From Fischerella thermalis PCC 7521 (GTDB lineage Bacteria > Cyanobacteriota > Cyanobacteriia > Cyanobacteriales > Nostocaceae), in the NCBI RefSeq assembly GCF_000317225.1, contig NZ_AJLL01000096.1, positions 1 through 64,000 of the forward strand: DNA of 64,000 nucleotides. The letters run 5' to 3'. Position numbers and translations under genes: made by a program. Below, one piece after another: positions 1-23,387 of this stretch. The notes under the pieces are model-generated. The model had not been told where the DNA came from. It was given only the letters and a program-made list of their open reading frames with translations, and searched no databases. Position 1 is the stretch's first letter, and the number at the start of each line of letters is the position of its first letter.

Positions 1-3000
1 TCTCTGGAAATGCTCTGCCAGCCGTTGTATAGTTTGCGGCTCAAATAAGTCAGTGTTATACTCCACGCTGCCAATCATGCCAGAGGCTGTTTCTGCCATG
101 TACAGTGTCAAATCAAACTTGGCAGTGCCACTATCACTTTCTAAGGTACTCAAGGTCAAACTCGGTAACTCTATCTCTAAACTGTGTGCATTCTGAAGTA
201 CAAACATCACTTGAAATAGAGGTGTGTGACTTAAGTTGCGCTGGGGCTGCAATTTTTCTACTAATTTTTCAAAAGGCACATCTTGGTGGGCATAAGCTCC
301 TAAAGCTACTTCCCGCACCCGACGTAGCAACTCTCGAAAGCTAGGGTTGCCAGATAAATCGGTTCGCAGCACTAGGGTATTGACAAAAAAACCGATTAAC
401 CCTTCTATCTCCCTGTGGTTACGATTGGCAATGGGAGAACCAATTACAATATCATTGTTTCCCGTGTAGCGATACAGCAGCGTCTTGAAGGCTGCCAGCA
501 AGGTCATAAATAAGGTGCTTCCTTCTTGCTGTCTCAAAGTTTTCAACGCAAGAGTTTGCTCTGGAGATAGCCGGAAAGAATGGGTAGCACCTCGGAAGGA
601 CTGAACAGCAGGTCGTGGGTGATCAGTAGGTAACTCTAGAACAGCTGGCGCACCATGCAACTGCTGACGCCAGTAAGCAAGCTGGGATTCCAGTACTTCT
701 CCTGTGAGCCACTGCTTCTGCCAAGCGGCAAAGTCTATGTACTGAATCGGTAATTCCGGTAACGGGGAAGGTTGCCCGTGACAAAAAGCTTGATAAAGTG
801 TTGCCAATTCATGCACTAGCACGCTTGTTGACCAACCGTCAGAAACGATGTGGTGCATGGTCAACAGGATCACATATTCCTGTTCACTAAGGCTGAGTAA
901 TTTCACTCGCAACAGAGTATCAGTCTCCAGGTTAAAGGGCTGTTGCGCCTCTGCAAGTGCTAGTTCTTTGACTTTAGTTTCTCGTTGAGCAGCAGGTAAT
1001 TCCGCCAGGTCAATGACTGTTAATAGCTGCGATGTTACTGATGAGATAAATGCTACGGGTTGCCCTTCGACGGTCTTAAAATTAGTTCGCAGGGCTTCGT
1101 GACGGCGTAGAATTTCATTAAAACTCTGCTCTAGTGCTGCTAGATTTAGCTGACCCTGTAAATGTACGGTATCGATAATGTTGTAAAAAGGACTGTCAGG
1201 CTCTAACTGAGCCAGGAACCAGAGTCGTTGTTGGGCAAAGGACAGGGGTAAATCTGCCGTCCGGGAAATACGTTGAATAGGCGGTATTTCTAATCCTAAG
1301 TCTGCTTTGGTAGCTTTTTCAATTTCTTTGGCTAGCCCCGCGACTGTTGGCTGGTTAAACAAGCAACGCAAGGGTAGTTCCACCTTAAATACTTGGCGCA
1401 GTTGCGAAATAACGCGAGTTGCGAGCAGGGAATGTCCCCCCAAATCAAAGAAGTTGTCGTGAATCCCCACTTTTTGAATGCTAAGCACTTCTGTCCAGAT
1501 TCCAGCTAGCATTTCTTCAACTGGTGTGGAAGGAGCTACAAGATTAGACTCAGATATTAGTTGTGTTGGGTCTGGTGCTGGTAGCGACCGGCGGTCTATC
1601 TTGCCATTGGGTGTCAAGGGTAGCGCTTCTAGGATGACAAAAGCTGTTGGCAGCATGTAGTTTGGTAGTTTTGCCTCCAAAAAGCGGCGCAGTTCGGGAA
1701 TTGTCAGTGTCTGGTCTGGGTGAAGAGTTATATAGGCTACTAAAGTTTTATTTGCAGTGTCATCCTCCCGAACAATAACCACACTCGCCGATATTGCTGG
1801 GTGTTGGCTGATGACTGCTTCAATTTCTCCTAGTTCAATGCGGAAACCCCGAAGTTTCACCTGGTGGTCAATGCGACCTATGTACTCTATATCACCACTA
1901 GGTAAATAACGAGCTAAGTCCCCAGTCTTGTATAAACGCACTCCCGGTTCGTTACTGTAGGGATGGGGAATGAATTTTTCACAAGTCAAATCAGGACGAT
2001 GCAAATAACCTCTAGCTAGACTATAACCACCTATATACAGTTCTCCAGGAACTCCTATCGGTACTGGCTGCAAGTTAGAGTCGAAAATGTACAACTCGGT
2101 GTTAGCAAATGGGCGACCAATTGGTACTAATTGGTCGTTAACTAACTCCTGAGTTGTGGTTTCAAACCAGGAACTGTCAATTGTGGCTTCGGTCAAACCA
2201 AAAGAGTTAATTAAGCGGGTGTGGGAACCGCAAAAGTTACGAAATTTTTGATATTCTTTTGTGTACCAAACATCAGAACCACAAATCAGCAGCCGCATAA
2301 AGTCAAGTTGCTGTTGACTTTCCTCTAGGTACTGCATCAAGTTTCGCAAAACTGCTGGTACAAATTCGGCACAGTCAACTTTTTCTTTGACCATGAGATT
2401 GTATAGGTCTTGAGGAGATAGCAGTAGGTCGCGGGGGCATAAAACCAGTTTGCCACCCGAACAGACAGCACGAACTAAATCTCCAGAAAAAACATCAAAG
2501 GAGAAACTTGCCATTTGCAGATGACAGGTGACGTCTGTGTGTAGGTGGTAAGTTTCTTCCCAAGCAAAATAAGCATTGACGAGGCTGCTGTGCTGAATTG
2601 TTACGCCTTTTGCTCTACCTGTAGAGCCTGATGTATAAATTACATAGGCTAGGTTTTCAGGTTTAGTCCCACTGATAGGATTATGTAATGTAACAGGAAT
2701 ATTACTGAAATTATTATTATCAATAAGTACAACTTTAGCTGTGTGTGGTGGGAGTTCGGCGACTAGTCCTGCCTGGGTAAGCAGTACCAAAGGCTTGGCA
2801 TCCTCCAACATCAAAGCTAACCTTTGTGGTGGATAGGATGGATCTAGGGGTATATATGCTCCGCCTGCTTTGAGAATTGCTAGGATAGCAATTACCGTCT
2901 CTAGCGATCGCTCAACACAAACCCCCACTAATACCTCTGGTCCCACTCCCAATTTTTGCAATTCATGGGCCAATTGGTTGGCACGGCAGTTGAGTTCCCG

Positions 3001-4479: not shown

Positions 4480-4480
4480 A

Positions 4481-7400
4481 TTACATTCCTCTAATGACTG
4501 CGGTAATTGCATCCAGATCGGCTTGATTCCATTGGCTTTGCTGAAATTCGGCAAAATCGGAAGGAGTAAAGCCACCTGCATCGGGAGATTGACAGTGAGT
4601 AATTAGTGAGCGCAATGCATCTATATAACCAACAGCCAATTTTTCCACTGTTGCACTTTGATATATCTGTTGACTAAAACTCCATTCCAAGCGCAATTGA
4701 CCTGCACTCACCATTCCGTTAATTTCCAAAAGGTATGGCAGGGTTTCCTGTGGACTGTAAACGCGACCACTTGATTCTGGGGCGAACTGAAATAGAGAGG
4801 ATGAAGACAAACTCTGGTCAAACTGACCCAGATAGTTAAAAGCCACCTCAGCTTGAGGTAATGCTTGCAGTACTTGGGCAACTTCATCACCTCTGAGGTA
4901 GCGCAATATCCCATAGCCCACTCCCTGATTAGGAATGCGGCGCAGTTGTTCTTTAACTGTTTTTAAAGCTTCTCCAGGATGACTATTGGGACTTACTTTC
5001 AACACTACAGGAAAAACGGCAGTAAACCAACCCACAGTCCGGGATAAATCTATCGATTCTGAAAACGCTTCCCGGCCATGGGCTTCTAAATCTACTAACA
5101 AACAATCCATCCCCTGCCATTGGGCAAAGGTCTGTGCCAAAGCTGTCAGTAACACATCATTGATTTGAGTGTTGTAGGCTTGGGGAACCTCTTGTAACAA
5201 AGCTTGAGTTTCTTCTGGACTCAAAGCTACAGAGACAATTTGAGCTTTAGCCATTGTATTCTCTCCCCCTGGAAAGTCCACGGGTAGGGAAGCAATGGGT
5301 TGTTGCAGTTCTTGTTGCCAGTAATTGAGTTCTTGCTTGAATGCGTCTGCTTGGGCATAGGCTTGTAGTTGTTCAGCCCACTGTTTGAAGGAAGTCGTTT
5401 TAGAAGCCAATTGAATTCTTTGGCTACAACAGATTTGCTCATAACTCCTCTGCAAATCCTCCAACAGGATGCGCCACGACACCCCATCAACCGCTAAGTG
5501 ATGGATCACAATCAGTAGACGCTGTTGATTGCAGCCCAGGTGGAATAAGGCAACCCGAAGCAATGGCCCTTCAGATAAATTGAGGCTGGCTTGAAGTTCG
5601 TTGGCAGCGTCTGCAATTACTTGTTTTTGTTGAGTTTCCGGCAAAGCTGAAAAATCTCGCTGCACCAACGGAACTACGCCATCAACATCAGCATTCACCT
5701 GCTGCCAACCAGATTCCCCCTTGACAAAACGCAAGCGAAGTGCATCGTGGTGCTGGAGTAACCCTTGCACTGCTTTCTCTAAGCAAGTAATATCCAGTGG
5801 TTGCTTTGGTTCGAGCAGAACTGCTTGATTATAGTGGTGAGGAAAACGGAGATTTTGGGCAAAGAACCAGTGCTGAATGGGCGTCAAAGGTACTGTTCCG
5901 GTGACAATTCCTTGTTCGACGGCAATGATGGTCTCAGTTGTACTGACTACTGCTACTAATTCCGCGATCGTCTGGTATTGAAAAATCTGCTTTGGTGTTA
6001 ATTTTAGTCCGGCTTCTCGAGCTTTAGAAACGACCTGAAGACTGAGGATGGAGTCTCCACCTAATGCAAAAAAGTTGTCTTTGATACCTACCTTTTCTCT
6101 ACCTAGTACCTGCGCCCAAATCGTAGCTAACTGTTTTTCGACTGTAGTTTCAGGAGCGATGAAAGCTGATGCTATTTCTGGAGTTTGCTGTTCTGGTGCT
6201 GGTAGTGCTTGCAGATTTACCTTACCGTTGGGGGTTAAAGGCATAACTTCCAGGAATACGAAGGCAGCAGGAATCATGTATTCTGGTAACTTTTCTTTGA
6301 CGAAGTTACGCAGGTCATGGCTGAGTGCTGAGTGATGAATATTACTATTATCTAAGTCTTGTGCTTCTTGCTTAGGAATTTCCGACTGGAAGCGATCGCT
6401 ACCCGCTATCAAATCCTCTTGCCCTCTGCTTTGTTTGTTAGGAACTATATAAGCTACTAAGCGTTTATTTCCCGCTTTTTCTTCTCGTGCTAAAAGCACC
6501 ACTTCTCGCACGGCGGGATGTTGACTCAGCACCGACTCAATTTCTCCTAACTCGATGCGGAATCCCCTAACTTTCACCTGATTGTCAATCCGCCCCAGGA
6601 ATTCGATGTTGCCGTCTTGACGATAGCGTACTAAATCCCCTGTTTTGTATAATCGCGCTCCTAGCTGATTGCTGAAGGGGTGGGGAATGAATTTATCGGC
6701 GGTCAAATCTGGACGGTTGAGGTATCCCCTAGCAATACCAACACCACTAATATATAGTTCACCAACAACACCAATGGGAACTGGTTGCAAATATTTATCT
6801 AATACGTAGGTTTGAGCATTGGGAATCGGGCGTCCAATCGGTATCTTGAGTGACGGGTTGTCTGTGGGTGCTAACGGTAATTTGTATGTCGTTGCGACAA
6901 CAGTCGCCTCTGTGGGGCCGTAGGTGTTGATCAGTTCTTGGCGATCGCCTACACAATTTTGCCAAATTTCTACTTGTTTTCCCTGCGCTTGCTCTCCCCC
7001 AATAATTACTAGCCGGAGTGAGTCGGGTAGCCGTAAATGTGCTGTGGCGATATCAGACATGAGCTGTTGCCAGTAGGCAGTCGGCAAATCTAATACCGTC
7101 AGCTTTAAATCCTGGCACTTTTGCAGAAATGTCTGCCCATCACTGAGCATCTCATCAGTACGTAGAACTAAAGTTCCACCGCACGTTAGGCAGGGATAAA
7201 TTTCTTCTGCTGCGGCATCAAAACTAATGGAGGCAAACTGAAGCACGCGATCGCCCTCTGTCAGTCCATATTCAACCACAGCAGCTTCCGTAAAATTAAC
7301 TAAAGATTTATGTGTAATTAATACACCTTTGGGTGTACCTGTAGAACCAGAAGTGTAAATCACATAAGCTAAATTTTCGCTTTCAGTAATACTAAAGGGA

Positions 7401-9313
7401 TTGCTCCGGCTCTCCTGCGAGATGGCTTGCCAGTCTGTATCCAAACAGACAACACATGTTTGATGCTCAGGCAGTTCTTTGATTAATTTTTCCTGAGTTA
7501 GAAGTACAAGCGCTTGGGAATTCGCCAAGATGTAGGCTACACGCTCCTGGGGATAGTTTGGGTCTATGGGCACATAAGCGCCACCCGCTTTTAAGATGGC
7601 TAAGATTGCGATCGCCATCTCTAAGGAACGCTCAACACAAATCCCCACTGGCACTTCTGGTTGCACTCCCAACTTTTGCAAATAATGGGCCAGTTGGTTG
7701 GCTTTCTCGTTGAGTTCTCGGTAAGTCAACTGCTGATCTGCAAACACCACCGCCACTGCATTTGGTGTTCTTTCCACCTGGGCTTCAAACAGTTGATGAA
7801 TGCACTGGTCTTTGGCATAGTCTGTTGTTGTTTGATTCCAATCTACAAGCAGCTGATTTTCCTCAAACTTAGTCAGTAAAGGTAATTTTGAGATATTCTC
7901 ATCGGGGTGAGAAACAATCCCTGCCAGCAAAGTTTGCCAATGCCCGATCATCCGGTTAATGGTGTCTGCCCTAAACAAGTCGGTGCTGTACTCTAAGGCT
8001 CCCATTAGTCCCAGCTTTGTATCTTCTAAGAACAAAGTCAAGTCAAACTCAGCAAATCCACTGTCTACAATTGAGGGAGTCAATTTCAGACCAGGCAATT
8101 CTAGGGCTTGGAGTGGCGAATCCTGGAAAACGAACATCGTCTGGAACAGAGGGTTATGACTCAATGTCCGTTCTGGTTGCAGTTCTTTCACCAGTTGCTC
8201 AAACGGTAAGTCTTGATGAGCATAAGCTGCCAAGGTGGTTTCCCGTACCCGTGCTAATAGTTCTCGAAAACTAGGGTTGTTAGAAAGATTAGTTCGCAAA
8301 ACCAAAGTGTTAATAAAACAACCTAGTAAATTTTCGGTTTCAATTTGGTTGCGATTGGCAATGGGAGTACCAACTACCAGGTCTGTTTGTCCTGTGTAGC
8401 GATAGAGCAAAGTCTTAAACGCCGCAAGTAACACCATGAACAAAGTCACGCCTTCCTTTTGACTTAAGGACTTCAGTGCCTCTGTCAATGATTGAGGAAG
8501 GATGAGAGTTTGGCGCGCACCTCGCAAGCTTTGAACCGCCGGACGTGGATTGTCTGTTGGTAAGGCGAAAACCGGAGGTAAGTTTTCCAGTTTTTGCTGC
8601 CAATAAACTAACTGAGACTTGTACGTTTCGTCATCCAAAGATTGCCGCTGCCAAAGAGCGAAATCTGCATACTGGATAGGCAATTCTGGCAAAGCTGGGG
8701 CAGTGCCATCACAAAAGGCTTGGTAAAGTGTTCCTAATTCTCGATAAAAGATTTGTCGAGATAAGCCATCACAGATAATGTGATGCATGGTTAAAAGGAT
8801 GATATGTTCTTGCTGTTTTAATCTGATAAGTTTGCACCGTAATAGAAGTTCTTGAGTCAGATCAAAGGTTTTACTAGATTGTTCGGTAATAATTTGTTTG
8901 ACTAATTCTTCTTGTTCAGGTTTTGACAACTCTTGCAAATCTAAAATAAGCAGTTTTAATGTTATGGTCGGAGCAATAATTTGAATTGGTTGAGTGTCTA
9001 CAATTTTAAAAGTGGTGCGGAGTATTTCATGTCGTTTAATAATTTCGTTTAAACTTTTTTCTAAAGCTATACTGTCAAGCTTACCTGTAACATGAATTAG
9101 AATGGAATCATTAAATAAAGGAATATCTGGTTGTAATTGATAGAGCAACCATAACCGTTCCTGAACTAAAGATAATAATAAAACATCAGAAGATTTTCTT
9201 TTAGAAATAGATGTTAATTTTTTTATGCTCAATTCTTTTTGTTTCAGACGCAGTTCTAACAGTGCCCGTTTTTCTGGAGGAAGATTTGCAATTCTTTTAC
9301 TAATATCACTCAT
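4481..9313 (-). CDS. NRPS, C-A-PCP-E module (D-amino acid; acidic-pocket A domain)
   Basis: 1610-residue synthetase that adds and epimerises one amino acid. Domains: N-terminal linker (1-45); C domain (about 45-470, HHIICDG); A domain (about 490-1040, YTSGSTGTPKG near 655); PCP with LGGDSIL near 1084, the GGDS form usual before epimerases; and E domain (about 1140-1590) with HHLAVDG near 1272 and FNYLGQF. The A-domain pocket reads D-A-E-D-I-G-T-V-V-(K). I do not recognise this code for certain. Acidic residues at pocket positions 239 and 278 suggest a substrate with a basic side chain (Lys, Orn or similar), which is inference. Between A8 and A10 there is an unusual Ser/Asp/Gln-rich segment of some 35 residues (about nt 6310-6440). 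There is no Shine-Dalgarno; the ATG lies 6 nt after the stop of the monooxygenase stub, suggesting translation once relied on coupling to that gene. Confidence 0.95.
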   Translation of the reverse strand: MSDISKRIANLPPEKRALLELRLKQKELSIKKLTSISKRKSSDVLLLSLVQERLWLLYQLQPDIPLFNDSILIHVTGKLDSIALEKSLNEIIKRHEILRTTFKIVDTQPIQIIAPTITLKLLILDLQELSKPEQEELVKQIITEQSSKTFDLTQELLLRCKLIRLKQQEHIILLTMHHIICDGLSRQIFYRELGTLYQAFCDGTAPALPELPIQYADFALWQRQSLDDETYKSQLVYWQQKLENLPPVFALPTDNPRPAVQSLRGARQTLILPQSLTEALKSLSQKEGVTLFMVLLAAFKTLLYRYTGQTDLVVGTPIANRNQIETENLLGCFINTLVLRTNLSNNPSFRELLARVRETTLAAYAHQDLPFEQLVKELQPERTLSHNPLFQTMFVFQDSPLQALELPGLKLTPSIVDSGFAEFDLTLFLEDTKLGLMGALEYSTDLFRADTINRMIGHWQTLLAGIVSHPDENISKLPLLTKFEENQLLVDWNQTTTDYAKDQCIHQLFEAQVERTPNAVAVVFADQQLTYRELNEKANQLAHYLQKLGVQPEVPVGICVERSLEMAIAILAILKAGGAYVPIDPNYPQERVAYILANSQALVLLTQEKLIKELPEHQTCVVCLDTDWQAISQESRSNPFSITESENLAYVIYTSGSTGTPKGVLITHKSLVNFTEAAVVEYGLTEGDRVLQFASISFDAAAEEIYPCLTCGGTLVLRTDEMLSDGQTFLQKCQDLKLTVLDLPTAYWQQLMSDIATAHLRLPDSLRLVIIGGEQAQGKQVEIWQNCVGDRQELINTYGPTEATVVATTYKLPLAPTDNPSLKIPIGRPIPNAQTYVLDKYLQPVPIGVVGELYISGVGIARGYLNRPDLTADKFIPHPFSNQLGARLYKTGDLVRYRQDGNIEFLGRIDNQVKVRGFRIELGEIESVLSQHPAVREVVLLAREEKAGNKRLVAYIVPNKQSRGQEDLIAGSDRFQSEIPKQEAQDLDNSNIHHSALSHDLRNFVKEKLPEYMIPAAFVFLEVMPLTPNGKVNLQALPAPEQQTPEIASAFIAPETTVEKQLATIWAQVLGREKVGIKDNFFALGGDSILSLQVVSKAREAGLKLTPKQIFQYQTIAELVAVVSTTETIIAVEQGIVTGTVPLTPIQHWFFAQNLRFPHHYNQAVLLEPKQPLDITCLEKAVQGLLQHHDALRLRFVKGESGWQQVNADVDGVVPLVQRDFSALPETQQKQVIADAANELQASLNLSEGPLLRVALFHLGCNQQRLLIVIHHLAVDGVSWRILLEDLQRSYEQICCSQRIQLASKTTSFKQWAEQLQAYAQADAFKQELNYWQQELQQPIASLPVDFPGGENTMAKAQIVSVALSPEETQALLQEVPQAYNTQINDVLLTALAQTFAQWQGMDCLLVDLEAHGREAFSESIDLSRTVGWFTAVFPVVLKVSPNSHPGEALKTVKEQLRRIPNQGVGYGILRYLRGDEVAQVLQALPQAEVAFNYLGQFDQSLSSSSLFQFAPESSGRVYSPQETLPYLLEINGMVSAGQLRLEWSFSQQIYQSATVEKLAVGYIDALRSLITHCQSPDAGGFTPSDFAEFQQSQWNQADLDAITAVIRGM

Positions 9314-9319
9314 GATAAA

Positions 9320-9588
9320 TCACCCAAATAAGTTGAGTGCTGATTTATGTTTAACAGTATTTTTAGCTTGATACTCTTCTGTTAGTTTTTGCAACTTATA
9401 TAGGCTTGTCATCACAGAATCGAAATCCAAGCCAAAATCAATCAAACACGCAATTTCATCAACACCAATTGATTGCATATATTCAATAGTTTCACGACAG
9501 GTTGCGATAGGGGTAAGAATTTTTATAGCAAGGTTTGTACCATAACCTAGTGTAATTAGCTGTTTTGAAAATAGCGATCGCAGATCAA
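9320..9588 (-). pseudogene. C-terminal stub of a luciferase-like monooxygenase (MupA/Atu3671 type)
   Basis: An open stretch ends in TGA at 9320-9322. It reads like the last ~85 residues of the FMN-dependent luciferase-like monooxygenases that accompany NRPS/PKS lines: ILTPIATCRETIEYMQSIG, then VDEIACLIDFGLDFDSVM, then a leucine-rich tail. An in-frame stop (TAA) lies just before the readable part, and the large N-terminal flavin-binding portion is absent. Only about 200 bp, including a dispersed repeat (9617-9675), separate the stub from the PKS gene. I infer that a full monooxygenase gene once stood between PKS and NRPS and was deleted. Assignment to the family rests on the VDEIACLIDFG block, which I recognise by memory. 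Confidence 0.72.
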
Positions 9589-9613
9589 ATTAGGAGCAAA
9601 CCCATAATCCATC

Positions 9614-9676
9614 TGTGTACCCTGCACCGAAGCCGCGCTTGGGCGCGTCTAAATCTGTGTGCATCTGTGTTCGTTA
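9614..9676. repeat. Dispersed GC-core repeat, copy 1
   Basis: Sequence of the form ATCTGTGTACCC-n-GAAGCCGCGC-n-GCGCGTCTA-n-ATCTGTGTTCG with a small GC-rich hairpin core. Closely related copies occur at about 14466-14520 (other orientation) and 27958-28020, and a shorter relative of the core at 31826-31852. It lies in the decayed monooxygenase interval. Confidence 0.7.
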
Positions 9677-9789
9677 TATTCTTCATCTCCTCGTTGTTGG
9701 CAATTAATTGCCCGTGAGAGTCTAGTGATCTGTTGCATTAGTTCTGAGGGATTAAAATGTAATTCATTAAACTATGTAACTTATCAAAA

Positions 9790-12700
9790 TTAATGACACA
9801 AACCATTAGCTTGTGATTCTTGAGCAAGTTGTTGTTTAATTTCATCCAGTGAAAGATTTTCTACCTCTGCTAATAGCTGTTCTATCTCCTTCAATTCTTC
9901 TGCCTTTGGTTGTTTTTCTGCTATGACAATAGCTAGTTCAGCTACAGTGGGGGCTTCAAATAAAAGAGTGCGCAGGGGTAGGTCCACTTGAAATGTTTCA
10001 CGTAAGCGAGAAATTGTTTGCACAGCTAGTAAAGAGTGTCCGCCTAATTCAAAGAATTTGTCATAAATTCCTACTTTGTCAATACCTATCAGTTCTTCCC
10101 AAATATTGGCAATACTTTGCTCAATTTCGTTACGAGGAGCAACATAAGTAGTTTCTTGGAGAGTGCGTGCATGTCTTGTGCCGGATAAGTGAGTGAAATT
10201 CTCTGATTTAGAGTTGAGAAAACTTGATGAAAGAAATTGATTAAATTGATCAATGACTAATTGTAATTCTTGTGTGGAAACTAAAATTTGAGGAAGCGGA
10301 TTTGCTAAAATCCGTTCAAATGCTTCTACTGCTTCTGTTGGCAATAGTCCATTTTTGAGAGTTTCAGAGCGCCATTTCTTAAGTTCTTCAGGAACAGCAG
10401 TATTGACTGCCATTCCCACTTCTTGCCATGTATCCCAGTTGATTGCTAATGTCAGTTTACCATTTTTGGATGTATTAAAGTGAGCAAATTTATCTAAAAA
10501 TGCATTGGCTGCGCAATAATCTACTTGTCCAAATCCTCCATAAATTGAACTTAGAGAAGAACAAAGTACCAAGAAATCTAGATTGATGTCTTGGAGGACT
10601 TCATTTAGCACTAATGTTCCCTGTAATTTGGGAGCAAAAACACTATTCACAATCTCTAAAGTTTTCAGTTGAACTATACCACTGCCTGCGACTCCAGCTG
10701 CATGAATGACGCCATGAATTTCCCCAAAATTTTCTAGAGATTGAGCAACTGCACTTTGCATTTGTTCATAATTAGTGACATCGGCAGGCAATATTAAAAC
10801 TTCAGCCCCTAGTGTCTCTAATTCCTGCAATTTTTGAATTTTGTGGTGAGTATGATCAGATGTATCATGAGTAGCTAGCCATTGTTGCCAATGCTCTTTT
10901 GCTGGTAATTGAGAACGTCCAATGAGGATAAGTTTAGCTTGTACTGTCTGGGCAAGATACTTGGCAATTTCTAAGCCTATACCCCCTGTGCCACCAGTGA
11001 TTAAATATACTCCTTTTTGCCGTAATCGTGTTTTGCGGCTGGTAGGTTTTTCTAAAGTTATCGGTTCAAATACTTGTACCCAACGATGATGATTTCGGTA
11101 GGCGATGATAGATTCGTTGGATTCTGCTGTGATTTCTGCGAGTAATTCTTGTACAAGATTGTCGATTCTGGAAGTAGGTAAGACTACATCTATTTGACGG
11201 CATTTAATGCCTGGATATTCTTGGGGTATGACTTTACAAGGTCCTAAAATAGTGGCTTTTGCAGGCAATAATTCCTCATTACCAGTGACATCATAGAGAT
11301 GATTACTCACAACGAAAAGTTGAATTTTTGAGTCACTAATATTTTGCTGTCCTAAAGCTTGCGCTAGATAAATTAAACTCCAGAAACCATGATTTTGAAT
11401 TGTTTCTAGTGACTGATGAATTAAATGAGTGAGGCTCCAAAAATGAATGATTGTTTCTGGTATTTTACCTTGTTGATGAATAGTTTGGAGCAAAGTATAG
11501 TAATCATCTTTTTGAGTAGGATTGATTGTGTAAGTGTTGTGGTTAACTTGGCTAAATTCCGCACCTACTAAGACTGCGATCGCATCTTGTCCTGTTTGTT
11601 GCAAATGTTGAACAATTTGCGAACCTATGGTGCATTCATCAACAAAAACCAGATAACAAGTAGACCTTTTCTCTCCAGTTTTGACTAGAGGAATTTGTTT
11701 CCAGGAAGGAACATAAAACCAGTCAGCTATATTGGGTTTTTTACCAAGTTTACTTTCCGCTTGCCCAGATTTTTCTGCTGTTAATTGGGGTTCAATCCAG
11801 TAACGCTGACGCTCAAAGGGGTAAGTTGGTAATGGTACGCGCTGACGTTGTTCGTGAGCATAAAAACCAGACCAATTGATAGTAACTCCTGCTAACCAGA
11901 GTCTACCTAAGATGTTGAGTATAAAAGCAACATCCGATTGTTTGTCCTGGGGGTGGCGTAAGCTTGGCAAAACCACCTGTCCTATTGCTTGGTGGGAATG
12001 CTGTTTAGCCAGTGTACACAAAGTACGTCCTGGTCCGACTTCTAGGAGAATCCGATTTGGTTGTTGCAGTAATTGAGATATTCCCGCACTAAAGCGCACA
12101 GGAAAGCGTAAATGTTTTGCCCAATAATTAGGATCTGTGGCTTCTTCTGGGGTGATCCAAGTTCCTGTGACATTGGAGATAAAAGGTATCTTGGGAGGAT
12201 AGAGTTTTACCTTTTTAACTTCAGTAATGAATGATTCCAAGATCGGTTCCATCATCTGGGAATGGAAGGGGTGGGAAGTATGCAGGCGGCGACATTCTAC
12301 GCCTTTGGCTTGCAGTTGTGCCTCAAAGGTGTTGACGGCGTCATGACTTCCCGAAACTACACACAAATGGGGGGCGTTGCTAGCAGCTAAGGATAACTCT
12401 TGATGAAGTAAGGTTTTGACTTCCTCTTCTGGGAGTGCAACAGAGAGCATTGCACCTGTTGGTAGTTGCTGCATCAGTCGTCCCCGCATCGCAACCAAAG
12501 TTAAAGCTTCTTCCAGAGACATCACACCAGCAAGGCAAGCCGCGACATATTCGCCGATACTATGGCCAATCATGGCGCTGGGAGAAATTCCCCAGGACAT
12601 CCACAACTGAGCCAGCGCATACTCAATTACAAACAATGCACTTTGAGCGATACTGGTTTGTTTGAGTTTTTCTGCTGCTTGCGCCTGATTTTCATGAGGA

Positions 12701-14427
12701 TAGAATAGGGAACGCAAATCAAACCCTAAGAGAGGTTTGAGCATTAAGCAGCAACGATCCAGATGTTCACGGAATATCACCTCAGTCTGGTAAAGTTCTT
12801 TACCCATTTCCACATACTGAGCGCCTTGTCCCGGGAACATGAAGGCGATGGGACGTTCTACCGGTTCTTGGAAGTGGGTTAAAACTCTTTGTACATCGTG
12901 CCTATTTAATGTAGTGACAGCATCTGCAATATCCTGGCATACCAAGATGCGACGATAGTCAAATTCTCTGCGCCCCACTTGCAAGGTATAAGCTACATTT
13001 GCCAAGTTTTCTTGCGGATGTTCACTCAGATGGTGAGCGAGATTTTGAGTCGCATTTTCCAGGGCAGATTCTGTTTTGGCAGATAGTAGTAGTAATTGCC
13101 AAGGACGAGATTGCAGAGACGTGCCATGGCACGTCTCTGCAACTGGTGCTTCTTCCAGAATTACATGGGCATTAGTGCCACCAATTCCTAAGGAACTGAC
13201 ACCTGCACGACGGGGAGTTTTTTCAGCTTGCCATTGCGTGGGTTTTGTATTGACATAAAAAGGACTGTTGGCAAAATCAATCTCAGGATTGGGCTGCTGA
13301 AAATTCAGGCTCGGTGGTATCAATTTATGCTGGAGAGCCAGGGCGGTTTTGATGACCCCTGCCACTCCGGCGGCAGCATCTAAATGACCGATATTCGTTT
13401 TGACAGAACCTATGGCACAGAAGCCTTTTTTGTCAGTATAGTCGCGAAAAACATTGGTCAGGGCATTTATTTCAATCGGATCACCCAAATTAGTGCCTGT
13501 GCCGTGCGCTTCAATATAGCTGATGCTTTCCGGTTCTACTCCCGCCAAAGCCAGCGCTTCTGCTATGACTTCTGCTTGACCGTTGACGCTGGGTGCAGTG
13601 TAGCCAATTTTACTATAACCATCGTTGTTGATAGCTGCTGCTTTAATTACTGCATATATGTGATCCCCATCTGCGATCGCATCTGCAAGACGTTTTAAAA
13701 CTACCACTCCTACACCATTGCCAATAATTGTTCCCTGTGCTTTGGCATCAAAGGCACGACAGTGGCCATCTGGCGATAAAATTCCTCCTTCTTGATACAA
13801 ATAACCTGTTTTTTGTGGCACTCTAATTGAAACTCCACCTGCCAATGTCATGTCGCATTGGTAGTTTAATAAGCTTTGGCAAGCCAGAGTTATTGCTACT
13901 AGGGAAGTAGAACAAGCTGTTTGAATTGTGACACTCGGGCCAGATAAATTTAATTTATAAGAAACACGGGTAGTCAGAAAATCTTTATCGTTACCAATCA
14001 ACTTTTGAAAACTATTCGCTGACCCGATTTGATCGCGATTTATATTAAATGATAAATAGTTATTTAAACTAGCACCAGCATAAACACCAATCCGACTTTC
14101 ACACCTTTGAGAATCATAGCCAGCGTTTTCTAGTGCTTCCCATGCACATTCTAAAAACAGGCGGTGTTGTGGGTCGGTGATTTCTGCTTCTTTAGGGTTA
14201 AAACCAAAAAAAGCAGCATCAAATAAATCTATATCTTCTAATATTGCACCTGCTTTCACATAATTAGAGTTATTTAATAATCCAGGTTCGATTCCAGCAG
14301 CGATTAACTCTTCATCTGTAAACAGAGAAATTGATTCTACTCCTGAGCGCAAATTTTGCCAAAATTTTTCAATATTTTTGGCTCCAGGGAAGCGTCCTGA
14401 TATACCAATAATTGCAATTTCTTCCAT
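9790..14427 (-). CDS. Type I polyketide synthase module, KS-AT-KR-ACP
   Basis: One-module PKS of 1545 residues that adds a C2 unit to the Ser-loaded chain and reduces the beta-keto group. KS (about 1-425): TACSTSL Cys near 172, EAHGTGT His near 308, NIGHLDAAAG His near 348. AT (about 525-820): GHSIGEY Ser near 623 and a SHPFH motif, closer to malonyl than methylmalonyl enzymes. KR (about 1138-1370): NADPH motif TGGTGGIG, then S...Y..AN residues (VDYCAANAF). ACP: LGGHSLL Ser near 1465. No DH or ER is seen, so a beta-hydroxyl is expected. An upstream in-frame ATG at 14514 would add 29 residues that merely translate a dispersed repeat. The ATG at 14427 has AGGAAAG about 5 nt upstream and starts at the canonical MEEIAIIG, so I chose it. 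The KS-AT linker contains a translated palindrome (13111-13142). Confidence 0.96.
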   Translation of the reverse strand: MEEIAIIGISGRFPGAKNIEKFWQNLRSGVESISLFTDEELIAAGIEPGLLNNSNYVKAGAILEDIDLFDAAFFGFNPKEAEITDPQHRLFLECAWEALENAGYDSQRCESRIGVYAGASLNNYLSFNINRDQIGSANSFQKLIGNDKDFLTTRVSYKLNLSGPSVTIQTACSTSLVAITLACQSLLNYQCDMTLAGGVSIRVPQKTGYLYQEGGILSPDGHCRAFDAKAQGTIIGNGVGVVVLKRLADAIADGDHIYAVIKAAAINNDGYSKIGYTAPSVNGQAEVIAEALALAGVEPESISYIEAHGTGTNLGDPIEINALTNVFRDYTDKKGFCAIGSVKTNIGHLDAAAGVAGVIKTALALQHKLIPPSLNFQQPNPEIDFANSPFYVNTKPTQWQAEKTPRRAGVSSLGIGGTNAHVILEEAPVAETCHGTSLQSRPWQLLLLSAKTESALENATQNLAHHLSEHPQENLANVAYTLQVGRREFDYRRILVCQDIADAVTTLNRHDVQRVLTHFQEPVERPIAFMFPGQGAQYVEMGKELYQTEVIFREHLDRCCLMLKPLLGFDLRSLFYPHENQAQAAEKLKQTSIAQSALFVIEYALAQLWMSWGISPSAMIGHSIGEYVAACLAGVMSLEEALTLVAMRGRLMQQLPTGAMLSVALPEEEVKTLLHQELSLAASNAPHLCVVSGSHDAVNTFEAQLQAKGVECRRLHTSHPFHSQMMEPILESFITEVKKVKLYPPKIPFISNVTGTWITPEEATDPNYWAKHLRFPVRFSAGISQLLQQPNRILLEVGPGRTLCTLAKQHSHQAIGQVVLPSLRHPQDKQSDVAFILNILGRLWLAGVTINWSGFYAHEQRQRVPLPTYPFERQRYWIEPQLTAEKSGQAESKLGKKPNIADWFYVPSWKQIPLVKTGEKRSTCYLVFVDECTIGSQIVQHLQQTGQDAIAVLVGAEFSQVNHNTYTINPTQKDDYYTLLQTIHQQGKIPETIIHFWSLTHLIHQSLETIQNHGFWSLIYLAQALGQQNISDSKIQLFVVSNHLYDVTGNEELLPAKATILGPCKVIPQEYPGIKCRQIDVVLPTSRIDNLVQELLAEITAESNESIIAYRNHHRWVQVFEPITLEKPTSRKTRLRQKGVYLITGGTGGIGLEIAKYLAQTVQAKLILIGRSQLPAKEHWQQWLATHDTSDHTHHKIQKLQELETLGAEVLILPADVTNYEQMQSAVAQSLENFGEIHGVIHAAGVAGSGIVQLKTLEIVNSVFAPKLQGTLVLNEVLQDINLDFLVLCSSLSSIYGGFGQVDYCAANAFLDKFAHFNTSKNGKLTLAINWDTWQEVGMAVNTAVPEELKKWRSETLKNGLLPTEAVEAFERILANPLPQILVSTQELQLVIDQFNQFLSSSFLNSKSENFTHLSGTRHARTLQETTYVAPRNEIEQSIANIWEELIGIDKVGIYDKFFELGGHSLLAVQTISRLRETFQVDLPLRTLLFEAPTVAELAIVIAEKQPKAEELKEIEQLLAEVENLSLDEIKQQLAQESQANGLCH
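13111..13142. repeat. Perfect 32-bp palindrome inside the PKS gene
   Basis: Two 16-nt arms (TTGCAGAGACGTGCCA and its reverse complement) meet without a spacer. Read in the PKS frame it encodes about 10 residues (around AETCHGTSLQ) in the KS-AT linker. It resembles the AGAGACGT...ACGTCTCT palindrome at 48785-48813, so it looks like one member of a dispersed family sitting in frame in a gene. Confidence 0.9.
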
Positions 14428-14465
14428 TGTCTTTCCTGCTTTGTTCAGAAAAAAGCGAACACTCA

Positions 14466-14520
14466 TGGAACACAGATGTAGACGCCCGTAAGGGCGGCTT
14501 CCCGTAGGGTACACGGATAA
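14466..14520. repeat. Dispersed GC-core repeat, copy 2
   Basis: Inverted relative of the repeat at 9614-9676 (ACACAGATGTAGACGCCC-n-GGGCGGCTTCCCGTAGGGTACAC). It sits in the 128-bp gap between the FAAL-NRPS and PKS genes and accounts for the spurious N-terminal extension of the PKS reading frame. Confidence 0.7.
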
Positions 14521-14555
14521 AGCTGTATTTCATCTAAATGAGAAGTGCTATATTT

Positions 14556-17500
14556 TCACTGATTACGAGTTTTTTTATTTTGTTTTATCCAGAAATTTTT
14601 TCGTTGATTTAGCACTTCCATTTGTTTTTGCGCGCGATCGCGCATTGACCCAAAAGCAGGTACATCCTCTGGCTGCTGGCTTAAATATTGGGTCAAGGAA
14701 CTTATCGTTGGATGTTGAAACATTGCTACAACTGATAAATTCCGTTGAAAAACAGCTTGCAGTTTATTAGTAACCTGAACCATCAACAATGAGTTACCGC
14801 CAAGGTCAAAGAAGTTATCGTTGACGCCTACTTTTTCTAGATGCAGTACTGTTTGCCAAACTTTAGCTATTTCTTGTTCTATCTGGGACTGGGGAGGTTG
14901 ATATGTAGATGCTAACTCGGGGCGCAAGCTATCGGGAGCAGGTAAGGCGCGGCGATCTACTTTGCCGTTGGGTGTAAGTGGTAATGCATCTAACATCACA
15001 AAAGCAGAGGGAACCATATATTCAGGCAGCTTTTCTCGGAGGCGATCGCGTAATTCATCAATAGAAGGTGCATGATCTTGATTGGGAACCACATAGGCAA
15101 CTAAACGGCGTTCACTGAGTCTATCCTCTGTGGCGATCACAACTACCTCCCGTACCTGTGGGTGTTGTCCCAGGACTGCTTCAATTTCTCCTAGTTCGAT
15201 GCGGAAGCCGCGAATTTTCACTTGGTGGTCAATTCTCCCCAGGAATTCGATGTTTCCATCAGGACGGTAACGTGCTAAATCTCCTGTCTTGTAAAGGCGA
15301 TTAAATTTTAGATTTTGAGATTTTGCGGAAAGTCTGTTGACGCGCAGCGTCCCGGAGGAAACTTCAGAACTTTCCAAGACGGATTTTGGATTACTAAATT
15401 GTGTGCGATCGCAATCTTCTGGATTTTTACTACAATCCCCCAATTTATAATCTAGAATCGGTAATTCAAAATGGGTCAAGGGGTTGGGAATGAACTTTTC
15501 TTCTGTCAATTCAGGTCTATTTAGATAGCCTCTTGCCAATCCCACACCACCAATATGCAATTCACCCGGAACTCCGATAGGGACAGGTTGAAGATGTCTA
15601 TCTAATATGTATATCTGGGTATTGGCAATCGGTCGACCGATAGGAACTATTTTCTCGTTGCTACCTCGTTGACAGCGCCAGGCAGTGACATCAATGGCGG
15701 CTTCGGTGGGCCCATAAAGATTGTATAATTCTGCATCCAAAGACTCAAAGAAGCGTTCTTGTAGGTCAAAAGGTAAAGCTTCTCCACTACAAATGACACG
15801 TTTGAGACTCTGACATTTCTCTAATCCTGGTGCTTCTAAGAATACTTGCAGCATTGAGGGAACAAAATGCAGTGTGGTAATTTGCTCCTGAGCAATCAGT
15901 TCGACTAGATAGCCAGCATCTTTATGACCTTCGGGTTTGGCTAAAACTAGGATTGCGCCTGTCAACAAAGGCCAGAAGAATTCCCATACAGAGACATCAA
16001 AGCTAAAAGGGGTTTTCTGTAAAACTCTATCTGCTGGTGTTAATTGATAAGCATCTTGCATCCACAACAAACGATTGCATAAACCCAGATGAGTATTCAT
16101 TACTCCCTTGGGTATGCCTGTAGAACCAGAGGTATAGATGACATAGGCGAGATTTTCTGGTTTAACTTCACCCACTAGATTTTCTTGGCTGTGAGCAGCA
16201 AAAGTTTCACTATCTGTGTCTAGGCATATAACTTGCGCTTGGTGTGGCGGTAGTTTTTTGACTAAATGTTGTTGAGTGAGTAACACTTTTACACCAGCAT
16301 CTGCCAACATCAATGCCAAACGCTCTTGAGGATAGGCGGTATCTAGGGGTAAATAAGCACCACCCGCTTTGAGGATGGCTAAGATGCCAATCACCATTTC
16401 TGGCGATCGCTCCATGCAAATACCAACGATTACATCTGGTTGTACACCCAACTGCTGTAAGCTATGAGCAATTTGATTGGCTCTTTGATTTAATTCCCGG
16501 TAGGCGAATGTTTCTTTGTTAAAGACAACAGCGATCGCATCGGGTGTTTGTTCTACCTGCTCCTCAAACAAATGATGAACGCACAGATTTTGCGGATAGT
16601 CGGTTTTGGTATTATTCCAGTCAACTAGAAGTTGTTGTTTTTCAGGTGCTGTGAGTAGAGGTAAATCTGCAATGCACTGATCGGGATTTTTGACAACCCC
16701 TGTGAGCAATGTCTGGAAATGACCTAGCAGCCGATGGATGGTATCGGCATTAAACAAATCAGTGTTGTATTCAGCAGTGATCAGCAATCCATGTTCTGTG
16801 TCTGCTACAAATAGAGTCAGGTCGAACTTTGCTGTGCCGTTTTCGCCTTCCTGACAAGTTATGGATATATCTGATAACTTGGGACTCGGTATTGGCACAT
16901 TCTGGAGAACAAACATGACTTGGAAGAGGGGATTGTAGCTGAGGTCTCTATCTAGGTGTAGTTCCTCGACTAACTTCTCAAAAGGCAAGTCTTGATGAAT
17001 ATAAGCTTCTAGGGCTGTTGATTTTACCTGGGAGAGCAATTCTCTAAAACTGGGTTGGTTGGCTAGGTCTGTACGTAGCACCAAAACATTGACAAAATAT
17101 CCAATTAATGATTTTACCTCTGTTTGGTTACGATTGGCGATCGGAGAACCTACCAAAATATCAGTCTGTCCTGTATAGCGATAAAGTAAGATTTTGAAAG
17201 CCGTAAGCATTGTCATAAACAGGGTCACGCCTTCGCTATGACCTAGTTTTTTCAGTTCTGCTGTCAGGGTTGGGGACAGAGTTAGTCTTGCTTGAGCGCC
17301 TTTGAAGGTTTGGATCGGCGATCGCGGACGGTCTGTAGGTAAATTCAAGACAGGTAGTTTGCCACCCAGCTGCTGTTTCCAGTATGTCAACAGGGTTTGG
17401 ATGCGATCGCTTTGCAACCATTGCCTCTGCCAATAGGCAAAATCTATGTACTGAATAGGTAGTTCCGGCAGTGGTGAGGGTTCTCCACGAGAAAATGCTG

Positions 17501-20075
17501 CATACAGCGCTGCCAATTCTTGAATGAGAATGCCGATTGACCAGCCATCGGCTATGATGTGGTGCAGGGTGAGGAGCAATGTGTATTCTTGTTGGTCTAA
17601 GCGTAGTAGTTTGGCACGCAAAAGTGGTTGACTGGACAAGTCGAATGGTTGCTGAGCAAATTCACTAGCTAGACGTCGTACTTGTTCAGCCCGTTGGTTG
17701 AGTGTAACTTGCTGTAAATCCTCTGTGAGCAAGGTTAATTTAGTAGCTGGCTGAATCACTTGCAGAGGTTGTCCATCCACGACCACAAAGTTTGTTCGCA
17801 AAACTGCGTGACGTCTGATGATTTCATTTAAGCTTTGGGCGACTACTGCCTCGTTAATCTTACCTTTGCAGTTAATCAATATGGGAATATTGTATGCAGG
17901 CGAATCAGGAACGAACTGATGGATAAACCATAATCCCTGCTGAGAGAAAGATAAAGGGTGAACAGATGTAGTTTTCTGGACTTGGGTAACAGATATAGAT
18001 GGGATGGAAGTTGTTGTTGCTAATTGAGTAAGTATCTTAGTGGAGAGCGATCGCGTATTCAACCCTTCAAAGAAGTCTGCTACAGATACAGTAACTTCTA
18101 GGTCAGCCTCAATCTGGTTTTTTAACTCAAATACTCTCAAAGAATCGAGTCCCAAGCTGCTTAATGGCTGTTGTGGGTTAATTTCCTGTGGTGCGACACT
18201 AAGGACACGCGCTACCTGTTCTCTGAGATAAGATTCTAAAAGTGGTTGAGACTCTTCTGGAGTCAGCGCTAAGAGGGTTTGTCGTTGTAAGTGGTTTTCT
18301 TTACCTAAATAAGCAGTATTATTACTGATACTACTGCCGACCACATCCAGTTCGCCTGCCAGAAAAGCTACTTTGGTGGCACGACGTTGAATTTTACCAC
18401 TGGAAGTTTTAGGAATAGTACCTGGTTTAATCAAAACTACTGCATGAACTTGTACTTCATGTTCTTCAGTCACTGCTTGACGAATAGCAGTGGTGGCTTC
18501 ATTGATATCCGGTTTGGCGCGAAATTCCAATTCTTGGACGATGACCAGCTGTTCTTGATCATTGACCTCAACTGAAAAAGCAGCTGTACTACTTGATCGC
18601 AATGATGGATGGCTGCGTTCTGTGGTTAATTCAATATCTTGGGGATAAAGATTGCGACCTCGAATGATGATTAAATCTTTTGCTCTCCCAGTAATGAAGA
18701 GTTCTCCATTGTCTAGAAAGCCTAAATCCCCAGTCCGCAAAAACGGCCCTTCTCCTGTATCTTTGAGATAGGCACGAAAGGTTCGCTCTGTTTCCTCTTG
18801 CCGATGCCAATAACCTTGACCCACACTTGGCCCTGATACCCAAATTTCTCCCACTTGATTTGGTGAAGAGCGTGTTAATGTTTCAGGATTGGCAATCACA
18901 ATTTGTTGTTGAGGAATTATCTTACCACAACTGACAAAGGTTTGGATATCTTTATCTTGTGTCTGAGCGCTAACTTCAATGACTTGATTGTTTGCAAGTG
19001 CAGATTTCTGGACTTTTTTCACAATCGGTAAGGCTGTCTTGCTGCCACCAGAAACCATCAGAGTTGCTTCAGCCATGCCGTAACAAGGGTAGAAGGCTTC
19101 TCGACGGAACCCACACTCGGCGAAGGTGAGTGCAAATTGCTCTAGGGTATCCTGTCGCACAGGTTCAGCGCCATTAAACGCTACACTCCAACTGCTGAGA
19201 TCAAGACAAGAGCGCTGTTCTGGAGTAATTTTGTGAATACAATATTCATAGGCAAAGTTAGGAGCGCCACTTGTTGTCCCTTTATATCTGGAAATAGCTT
19301 GCAACCAGCGGAAGGGTCGTTGCAAAAAAGATGCTGGCGACATCAAGATGCAACTAAAACCGCCATATAAAGGTTGCAAAATACCACCAATCAGTCCCAT
19401 GTCATGGTATACGGGTAGCCAGGAGACAAATTTACTGTTGGGTGAATGTCCCATGAATTGGTAAGTGGCGGCGGCGTTGTGCAATAGGTTGCTATGACTG
19501 AGCATGACTCCCTTTGGTATCCCCGTAGAACCTGAGGTGTATTGGAGAAAGGCTATGGTATCCGCATTGATATCAGGCTGTTGCCAAGAATCTTCCAGAC
19601 CCTCTGCTAGGTTGTCGGTAACGAGCCAGCGTATATTTTCCAGGTTTGTTTGCTGTGCAAGTATGGATTGTAATGTGGGGAGCATCGCTGTTGTAGTGAG
19701 AGCGATGCGAGCCTGTGCATCTGTGCTGATAGCCTGGATTCTGAGTGCTTTGCGTTTATTTTGAGGCGGATAAGCTGGAACCGCTACAACTCCAGCATAT
19801 AGACAACCAAAAAAAGCACTCAAGTAATCTAGCCCTGGTGGATAGAGTAGTAGGGCACGTTCCCCTTTTAAATTCAAAGCTTGGAGTTGAGATGCGATCG
19901 CACGAGAGCGCTTATCCAACTGTTGATAAGTCAGTGTCGCTTCTTGGCTCTCTCCATCCTCCAAGAAGGTAAAGGCGCGACGCGTGGGCTGTGTAGAGCT
20001 TCTCAAGCGCAAAACGTCAACAACCGTAGAACAGTTATGGGAAATTTCTTTGGAGCTTTTGGTTTGTTGAGCCAT
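14556..20075 (-). CDS. Fatty acyl-AMP ligase / NRPS starter protein, FAAL-ACP-C-A-PCP (predicted Ser)
   Basis: 1839-residue loading protein that starts a lipopeptide. Domains: FAAL (1-590; YTSGSTGIPKG near 179, SWLPVYHDMGL, CYGMAEATLM), which adenylates a free fatty acid; ACP (LGLDSLRVFELK, near 655); C domain (about 715-1150, HHIIADGWS) that condenses the acyl chain with the amino acid; A domain (about 1175-1690); PCP (LGGNSLLMV). The A-domain pocket reads D-V-W-H-I-S-L-I-D-(K), matching the serine code. Between EKFIPNPL and RLYKTGDLARY there are about 58 extra residues (about 1533-1591) where other A domains have under ten. The C-terminal basic, coiled tail (MRDRAQKQMEVLNQRK) looks like a docking segment for the PKS. 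GAGGAA lies 5 nt before the ATG. It is the first gene of the minus-strand operon. Confidence 0.96.
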   Translation of the reverse strand: MAQQTKSSKEISHNCSTVVDVLRLRSSTQPTRRAFTFLEDGESQEATLTYQQLDKRSRAIASQLQALNLKGERALLLYPPGLDYLSAFFGCLYAGVVAVPAYPPQNKRKALRIQAISTDAQARIALTTTAMLPTLQSILAQQTNLENIRWLVTDNLAEGLEDSWQQPDINADTIAFLQYTSGSTGIPKGVMLSHSNLLHNAAATYQFMGHSPNSKFVSWLPVYHDMGLIGGILQPLYGGFSCILMSPASFLQRPFRWLQAISRYKGTTSGAPNFAYEYCIHKITPEQRSCLDLSSWSVAFNGAEPVRQDTLEQFALTFAECGFRREAFYPCYGMAEATLMVSGGSKTALPIVKKVQKSALANNQVIEVSAQTQDKDIQTFVSCGKIIPQQQIVIANPETLTRSSPNQVGEIWVSGPSVGQGYWHRQEETERTFRAYLKDTGEGPFLRTGDLGFLDNGELFITGRAKDLIIIRGRNLYPQDIELTTERSHPSLRSSSTAAFSVEVNDQEQLVIVQELEFRAKPDINEATTAIRQAVTEEHEVQVHAVVLIKPGTIPKTSSGKIQRRATKVAFLAGELDVVGSSISNNTAYLGKENHLQRQTLLALTPEESQPLLESYLREQVARVLSVAPQEINPQQPLSSLGLDSLRVFELKNQIEADLEVTVSVADFFEGLNTRSLSTKILTQLATTTSIPSISVTQVQKTTSVHPLSFSQQGLWFIHQFVPDSPAYNIPILINCKGKINEAVVAQSLNEIIRRHAVLRTNFVVVDGQPLQVIQPATKLTLLTEDLQQVTLNQRAEQVRRLASEFAQQPFDLSSQPLLRAKLLRLDQQEYTLLLTLHHIIADGWSIGILIQELAALYAAFSRGEPSPLPELPIQYIDFAYWQRQWLQSDRIQTLLTYWKQQLGGKLPVLNLPTDRPRSPIQTFKGAQARLTLSPTLTAELKKLGHSEGVTLFMTMLTAFKILLYRYTGQTDILVGSPIANRNQTEVKSLIGYFVNVLVLRTDLANQPSFRELLSQVKSTALEAYIHQDLPFEKLVEELHLDRDLSYNPLFQVMFVLQNVPIPSPKLSDISITCQEGENGTAKFDLTLFVADTEHGLLITAEYNTDLFNADTIHRLLGHFQTLLTGVVKNPDQCIADLPLLTAPEKQQLLVDWNNTKTDYPQNLCVHHLFEEQVEQTPDAIAVVFNKETFAYRELNQRANQIAHSLQQLGVQPDVIVGICMERSPEMVIGILAILKAGGAYLPLDTAYPQERLALMLADAGVKVLLTQQHLVKKLPPHQAQVICLDTDSETFAAHSQENLVGEVKPENLAYVIYTSGSTGIPKGVMNTHLGLCNRLLWMQDAYQLTPADRVLQKTPFSFDVSVWEFFWPLLTGAILVLAKPEGHKDAGYLVELIAQEQITTLHFVPSMLQVFLEAPGLEKCQSLKRVICSGEALPFDLQERFFESLDAELYNLYGPTEAAIDVTAWRCQRGSNEKIVPIGRPIANTQIYILDRHLQPVPIGVPGELHIGGVGLARGYLNRPELTEEKFIPNPLTHFELPILDYKLGDCSKNPEDCDRTQFSNPKSVLESSEVSSGTLRVNRLSAKSQNLKFNRLYKTGDLARYRPDGNIEFLGRIDHQVKIRGFRIELGEIEAVLGQHPQVREVVVIATEDRLSERRLVAYVVPNQDHAPSIDELRDRLREKLPEYMVPSAFVMLDALPLTPNGKVDRRALPAPDSLRPELASTYQPPQSQIEQEIAKVWQTVLHLEKVGVNDNFFDLGGNSLLMVQVTNKLQAVFQRNLSVVAMFQHPTISSLTQYLSQQPEDVPAFGSMRDRAQKQMEVLNQRKNFWIKQNKKTRNQ
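15300..15475. repeat. In-frame insertion in the Ser-activating A domain
   Basis: This stretch interrupts the otherwise conserved run from EKFIPNP to RLYKTGDL. It has intergenic-repeat character (TAGATTTTGAGATTTTGCGG, a GACGCGCAGCGTC palindrome, a GCGATCGC site) yet keeps the frame for about 58 residues. Inference: a mobile or dispersed repeat that landed in a surface loop and was tolerated. Confidence 0.6.
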
Positions 20076-20636: not shown

Positions 20637-20640
20637 AGGC

Positions 20641-21890: not shown

Positions 21891-22005
21891 ATCAAAAGGT
21901 TGTTATTTAAGAACTTATTTTCAATTTGGCAATATTTTTGGTTAGGGTTTAAGCAATATTAAGTTTGTCAATTTAGATTACGTATGTATCAAGTAAATTA
22001 AAACG

Positions 22006-23080: not shown

Positions 23081-23275
23081 CGAACGATACAGGGATGCGA
23101 TCGCTGTTTAGATCCTAAATAACTCTTGATGGAGCCAACTTCTTTGTTAAGCAATATTTCGCCACCAGTATCAAAAGTTGCCAAGAACCTAGATAATGTG
23201 CAACTCGACACTTTTAGTTGAAAAATAATGTATCTTCTATAACCAAGATTTATTAACACATACGGTTTATTCTTA

Positions 23276-23332: not shown

Positions 23333-23387
23333 AGACCACAATTGCAAATTAAGTTTTTTCAGTGTTTTAACTAGGTGTGAGGAATAA

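Follow-up and report, generated by a model that had tools for sequence, protein, structure and literature searches.

A FAAL-started PKS-NRPS cluster of Fischerella thermalis PCC 7521 that probably makes a fatty-acylated peptide siderophore with polyketide-derived ligands

Only a few cyanobacterial siderophores have been described, and the detection of siderophore clusters depends on marker genes of familiar chelators. The start of contig NZ_AJLL01000096.1 (hereafter C95) of Fischerella thermalis PCC 7521 raises the question of whether an assembly line with the look of a lipopeptide pathway, placed close to siderophore uptake genes, makes a siderophore and, if so, with which iron-binding groups. 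The original prediction for the window, i.e. the whole stretch of 64 000 nucleotides that was analysed, was of a FAAL-started lipopeptide (acyl chain, Ser-derived beta-hydroxy unit, D-residue, Orn), for which a siderophore role was offered on proximity only. According to the sequence comparisons set out below, the front half of a PKS-NRPS cluster of some 55 kb lies in the window, and we consider it probable that this cluster makes a FAAL fatty-acylated peptide siderophore (metallophore) with polyketide-derived alpha-hydroxy ligands.

The domain order proposed for four ORFs on one strand is found by Pfam in all four minus-strand ORFs (Table 1), and a motif check of the window shows the motifs of the Condensation, KS and AT domains, and most of those of the carrier proteins, to be intact. 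The guesses of Ser and Orn agree with the A codes DVWHISLIDK and DVGEIGSIDK, the latter being a published ornithine code (PMC3992020), and the code of the D-residue module, DAEDIGTVVK, has 8 of 10 positions in common with the Lys-type code DGEDHGTVVK (PMC12283262); only this Orn code and this Lys relative turned up in a literature search on A codes. Together with the FAAL, the E domain and the intact PKS1 KR (GGTGGIG, Y..N), the codes are in keeping with the predicted lipopeptide.

Table 1. Features of the PKS-NRPS line and of the adjoining receptor region in the window (strand: +, forward; -, reverse;., none given)
Feature	Position	Strand	Evidence
C-A(Orn)-PCP-C, open at contig edge	1..4581	-	Pfam; code DVGEIGSIDK; continues on C94 as A(bAla)-PCP
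C-A-PCP-E, D-residue module	4481..9313	-	Pfam and BLAST domains; code DAEDIGTVVK, Lys/Orn-like
MOX1 remnant, last 62 codons	9323..9508	-	tblastn 87% over residues 302-363 of G002 MOX1, E 7e-35
PKS1, KS-AT(malonyl type)-KR(intact)-ACP	9790..14514	-	Pfam; KR GGTGGIG and YCAAN; AT GHSIG and HPFH
FAAL-ACP-C-A(Ser)-PCP, loading and first module	14556..20075	-	Pfam AMP-binding x2, Condensation, PP-binding x2; code DVWHISLIDK
Intervening stretch	20148..22464	.	TnpB fragment, thioesterase fragment, DUF1636 protein (NCBIfam, PF00975, Pfam)
Receptor block	23211..27101	.	blastn: 94% to cluster 3' end in G001/G002; both flanks differ here
TonB-dependent siderophore receptor with AMIN domain	23388..26075	+	Pfam; TIGR01783 427 bits vs cut-off 223.5
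Iron-siderophore type ABC substrate-binding protein	26106..27098	+	Peripla_BP_2; best NCBIfam hits, under the cut-off, to models of Fe dicitrate/enterobactin SBPs

Position 1 of the window is the first base of C95, i.e. a contig end. Following the sequence beyond it, as the original prediction had advised, leads to C94, C93 and C90, three further contigs of this genome, over which the cluster runs on. C94 encodes [A]-PCP (VDWVVSLADK, read as bAla), KS-AT-KR-ACP, a monooxygenase of the MupA/Atu3671 family (MOX2; TIGR04020, 499 bits) and C; C93 encodes [A]-PCP (DILQLGLIWK, read as Gly), the aspartate decarboxylase PanP (625 bits against a cut-off of 606) and KS; C90 encodes KR-ACP, a methyltransferase, C-A-PCP-TE (VDWVISLANK), a P450, an SDR and a MATE protein. 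We take VDWV[VI]SLA[DN]K to be the bAla code and DILQLGLIWK the Gly code, on the basis of published codes and of the presence of PanP in the cluster. The order C95-C94-C93-C90 was adopted because only it joins the half-modules sensibly, and it is borne out by homologous clusters in two other Fischerella, G001 (a 48 192-base contig) and G002 (a single contig of 7.0 Mb). We discarded C95-C93-C94, since the last domain is KS on C93 and C on C94 and the relatives show the former arrangement. Measured on these relatives, the gaps between the contigs are ~426 bp (C95/C94), ~424 bp and ~11 kb, and the Orn-bAla gene, which is continuous there, lacks ~426 bp between C95 and C94 here. An AT search of the contigs of this genome found no bridge across the missing KS-AT part. 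The 11-kb gap would be explained by the 99% identical internal PKS repeats that G002 has at this place; three PKS modules lie in the matching stretch of G002, from which we infer the module number for PCC 7521. There is FAAL-ACP loading, then C and collinear modules, with a TE at the end (C90), all on a single contig in G002, and the cluster order is, as read from these domains, FAAL-Ser-PKS1/[MOX1]/D-Lys-like/Orn-bAla-PKS2/MOX2/Gly/PanP/PKSs/methyltransferase/bAla-TE/P450/MATE. We note two irregularities: the C domain of C94 (1-1380) has HHIICDR where HHxxxDG is expected, and the G002 cluster shows several frame breaks (D-residue module, PKS3, PKS5), due to sequencing errors or decay.

The bracketed MOX1 is a second monooxygenase, found in G001 and G002 between PKS1 and the D-residue module, of which the window retains a remnant only. 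The blastn alignment skips from 364 to 1320 of the G002 intergenic region, 955 bp being absent from the window, which is consistent with one clean deletion relative to the two sister strains. The PCC 7521 product should therefore lack the oxygen that MOX1 would add in sister Fischerella, and this natural loss offers a ready-made comparison of ligand number.

The other end of the line has also been altered. The receptor and binding lipoprotein had been placed about 3 kb from the end of the assembly line: the distance holds (3.3 kb), but it is measured to the 5' end, where the cluster starts, and the orientation is divergent. In G001 and G002, the orthologous receptor (95-96%) and binding protein (93-94%) are at the cluster 3' end, ~11 kb past the TE and, in G002, after a sucrase/ferredoxin-like gene and an ABC exporter; what lies to the right of the window receptor is placed by genome search at 332 kb in G002, at a distance of about 2 Mb. 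On this comparison, the receptor and binding protein have evidently been parted from their neighbours and have stayed linked to the cluster through rearrangement, in all three Fischerella. At the blastn setting used, nothing in the cluster regions of G001 or G002 matched positions 19977-23210. Over its first ~55 codons (19976-20075), the FAAL gene is ~77% identical to the relatives at the nucleotide level as against 95% downstream, and because the FAAL start diverges so much more than the rest, a recombination junction can be placed near 19976; the FAAL promoter has probably been replaced in PCC 7521. Between the FAAL and the receptor lie an IS605-type TnpB C-terminal fragment (20148-20636, minus strand), a thioesterase fragment (21563-21697, plus strand) within an 86-aa open frame, probably a remnant, and the gene of a DUF1636 protein (22006-22464, plus strand), which may be an iron-linked accessory because a homologue (33%) adjoins the SBP and TonB genes in another genome, G042.

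Since MOX1 and the original 5' end are lost, the PCC 7521 line may be decaying and make nothing or a shunt product, which would be compatible with a siderophore role in the relatives. The 955-bp cut in MOX1, the recombined FAAL start and the transposase and thioesterase fragments upstream all point in this direction, but all NRPS/PKS frames on the four contigs are open, catalytic motifs are kept and identity to the relatives is ~95% outside the MOX1 deletion, so that we regard decay as rather unlikely. Production is nevertheless less sure in PCC 7521 than in Fischerella muscicola PCC 7414, which has both monooxygenases, because the FAAL 5' end is recombinant and MOX1 is gone.

Is the linkage to a siderophore receptor peculiar to Fischerella? 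On a Gloeocapsopsis dulcis plasmid, the receptor and a siderophore SBP lie inside the homologous cluster, and three further genomes (G019, G045 and G051) have homologous lines with receptors beside or inside the cluster. Related lines also carry genes of familiar chelators: a TauD hydroxylase and an Asp-code module in G019, G042, G047, Nostoc linckia and Fortiea, an AspH-like hydroxylase in G051, and a salicylate synthase in G045 and likewise in G030, G041 and a Pseudanabaena plasmid. Hydroxymalonyl-ACP type genes (FkbH-like HAD, acyl-CoA and 3-hydroxyacyl-CoA dehydrogenases), which occur in G019, G051 and G. dulcis, may supply another alpha-hydroxyl. A TonB-siderophore receptor was found within 45 kb in at least 23 of ~34 genomes with a stand-alone MOX and in at least 2 of ~33 with a fused MOX, short contigs being scored as negatives, as were absences among the matches listed; the Fisher test on 23/34 vs 2/32 gives p 1.5e-7, for genomes that are related and not independent. 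Among the matches listed, about a third of the genomes with a stand-alone MOX lack a receptor within this distance. A fused MOX lies beside a PanP 73% identical to that of PCC 7521 in Nostoc cf. edaphicum LEGE 07299, so the pairing of PanP and MOX occurs outside the stand-alone clade too.

In the MOX tree, a branch with 100/99 support sets apart 25 sequences of the TonB-linked type, and the enzymes of the Agrobacterium plasmids pAt15955 and pAtS4e are nested among the cyanobacterial MOX2. In the MOX2-type branch, the KR of the preceding PKS module has a degenerate nucleotide-binding motif in all cases (16/16), as does PKS2 here (GDPVKGLG for GGxGxxG); in the MOX1-type branch, this KR is intact (9/9), as in PKS1. 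This split fits two ligand types, a 2-hydroxy-3-oxo unit (or a rearranged alpha-hydroxycarboxylate) and a 2,3-dihydroxy unit. Cyanochelin B is a structural precedent for the 2,3-dihydroxy unit: in its line, Ox with an active KR gives a 2,3-dihydroxy-2-methyl acyl unit (PMC12628792), but this Ox, part of a PKS fusion, falls outside the MOX clade of our tree. The closest solved relative of MOX2 is PuwE of puwainaphycin (PDB 6ket, 385 bits), a stand-alone monooxygenase of the same family, placed by the tree outside the siderophore-linked clade, although a position inside it is not rejected (p 0.147); its lipopeptide is not known to be a siderophore, and PuwE shows that stand-alone enzymes of the family also serve other lipopeptides. 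One may then ask whether the cluster makes a membrane-active lipopeptide in the style of puwainaphycin or minutissamide and stands by chance beside an iron-uptake operon, the more so as it has no classical chelator gene and as FAAL lipopeptides are common in Nostocales (PMC11837247). We find this improbable, in view of a receptor linkage kept through rearrangement and in other genera and of a MOX clade common to salicylate, beta-OH-Asp and fabrubactin-like loci. The siderophore role has thus gained from the conserved linkage, the chelator genes and receptors of homologous clusters and the MOX phylogeny, and stands as a genomic inference.

A linked siderophore receptor and binding protein, the criterion for peptide metallophores, are present. 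The best PDB match of the receptor is the enantio-pyochelin receptor (353 bits), with other likenesses to FhuA and FoxA/ferrioxamine structures. Such similarity, together with the TIGR01783 match and with that of the binding protein to Fe-siderophore SBPs, speaks for iron and makes a metallophore for copper, zinc or several metals quite improbable, even if lusichelin C, also cyanobacterial, binds iron and copper and is produced without iron control (PMC12210259). The regulatory evidence would suit such a metallophore: with a FurA-box matrix built from the boxes in Table 1 of PMC4005646, promoter-proximal regions scored no better than shuffles, except in G019. The best FurA-box-like site of the 64-kb window (21001-21019, score 14.0) lies between the cluster and the receptor, 0.9 kb from the FAAL start. 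The siderophore cluster of Anabaena sp. PCC 7120 is all2641-all2649 (PMC6562677, PMC4005646).

As to the ligands of the proposed siderophore, the Fischerella cluster has no Asp A code and no match to a TauD/AspH-type hydroxylase, which rules out cyanochelin membership; it has no match to salicylate synthase, a FAAL starter standing in place of a salicylate cap, and no hydroxymalonyl genes were found in it. Candidates for the Dmaq genes FbnL/FbnM from pAt15955 gave no tblastn match in the window, C94, C93, C90, G001 or G002, so that Dmaq membership is rejected as well. A hydroxamate made on the Orn and Lys-like residues, as their codes and the resemblance of the receptor to FhuA and FoxA might suggest, can hardly be the answer, given that Orn/Lys N-oxygenase (PF13434) is absent from the whole 99.99% complete PCC 7521 genome, whereas the search scores in 12 of the 14 controls. 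Because hydroxamate, beta-OH-Asp, salicylate, FbnL/M and hydroxymalonyl genes are absent, the alpha-hydroxy unit derived from MOX is the best candidate ligand, which Ser and ketide hydroxyls would help to bind iron. Comparison with the relatives suggests that the iron-binding groups are of an unusual kind, outside current genome-mining rules.

The domain order, A codes, KR motif states, deletion, linkage and phylogeny, all read from sequence, lead us to propose a product structure, iron as the metal, a ligand chemistry and roles in export and import. The FAAL would load a fatty acid, to which Ser and one malonate, with an active KR, would be added, then the D-Lys/Orn-like residue, Orn and a beta-alanine supplied by the cluster's own PanP. 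One more malonate would follow, with a dead ketoreductase, and the stand-alone flavin monooxygenase MOX2 would oxidise the beta-keto intermediate at the alpha carbon, which would leave either an alpha-hydroxy-beta-keto unit or an alpha-hydroxycarboxylate formed by rearrangement, the route that has been proposed for fabrubactin. In sister Fischerella, MOX1 would in addition alpha-hydroxylate the first ketide. Gly, further malonates, methylation and a last beta-alanine would complete the chain, to be released by the TE and exported by MATE or ABC proteins, and the ferric complex would re-enter via the TonB receptor and the binding protein.

What is most likely new here is a FAAL lipopeptide siderophore line with a monooxygenase group resembling FbnE and without the usual marker chelators. 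A broader proposal, to which we give an even chance, is that there is a class of cyanobacterial lipopeptide siderophores with ligands made only inside PKS modules, a stand-alone MOX with a dead KR giving alpha-hydroxy-beta-keto or rearranged alpha-hydroxycarboxylate units and a sister MOX with an active KR giving 2,3-dihydroxy units, ligand number varying by MOX loss. Such clusters would escape metallophore detection rules because they have no hydroxamate, catechol, beta-OH-Asp or Dmaq genes. A metallophore survey (eLife 2026) left FbnE out of its rules, since those hits that lacked the Dmaq genes seemed to be false positives (PMC12971057); our clade and linkage results suggest that a definable subset of such hits, those that are stand-alone and grouped by KR state, are true siderophore clusters. 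A stand-alone MOX combined with the KR state is a testable detection rule.

Among known systems, the cyanochelins are likewise FAAL-started cyanobacterial PKS-NRPS lipopeptide siderophores with adjoining TonB/Fe-ABC genes and a flavin monooxygenase in the line, but they are defined by beta-OH-Asp and its hydroxylases, neither of which is in the Fischerella cluster. Similar in their first half are uncharacterised FAAL-Ser/Thr-PKS1-MOX1-TauD-Asp clusters of Nostoc linckia FACHB-104, Fortiea LEGE XX443 and two other genomes (G042 and G047), with a FAAL 71-73% identical, a PKS1 KS 75-80% identical and a MOX1 73-75% identical to G002 MOX1, and with a TonB receptor adjoining the FAAL in three of the four; their second half differs, its place being taken by a module for Asp together with a TauD hydroxylase of the beta-OH-Asp type. 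Fabrubactin is FAAL-started with C10:0 (PMC11837247), and its two alpha-hydroxycarboxylates have been ascribed to the flavin monooxygenase FbnE (PMC12971057). Our comparison covered the fabrubactin-type loci of Agrobacterium on pAt15955 and pAtS4e; the pAt15955 locus (FAAL, PKS, MOX, NRPS, MATE, aspartate decarboxylase, two 'siderophore biosynthesis' proteins, Fe-ABC and TonB receptor) resembles what has been published on fabrubactin (PMC12971057, PMC11837247). These loci differ from ours in the order of A domains and in having two small genes, presumably FbnL/M (Dmaq chelator). An FbnE-like flavin monooxygenase beside PKS modules is present in the Fischerella cluster, in one clade with the pAt15955 and pAtS4e enzymes and with the same KR degeneration, and both Agrobacterium loci share with it a FAAL-type AMP ligase, a degenerate-KR PKS followed by a stand-alone MupA/Atu3671-family MOX, then NRPS, and MATE, to which pAt15955 adds a TonB receptor, Fe-ABC genes and an aspartate decarboxylase for beta-alanine.
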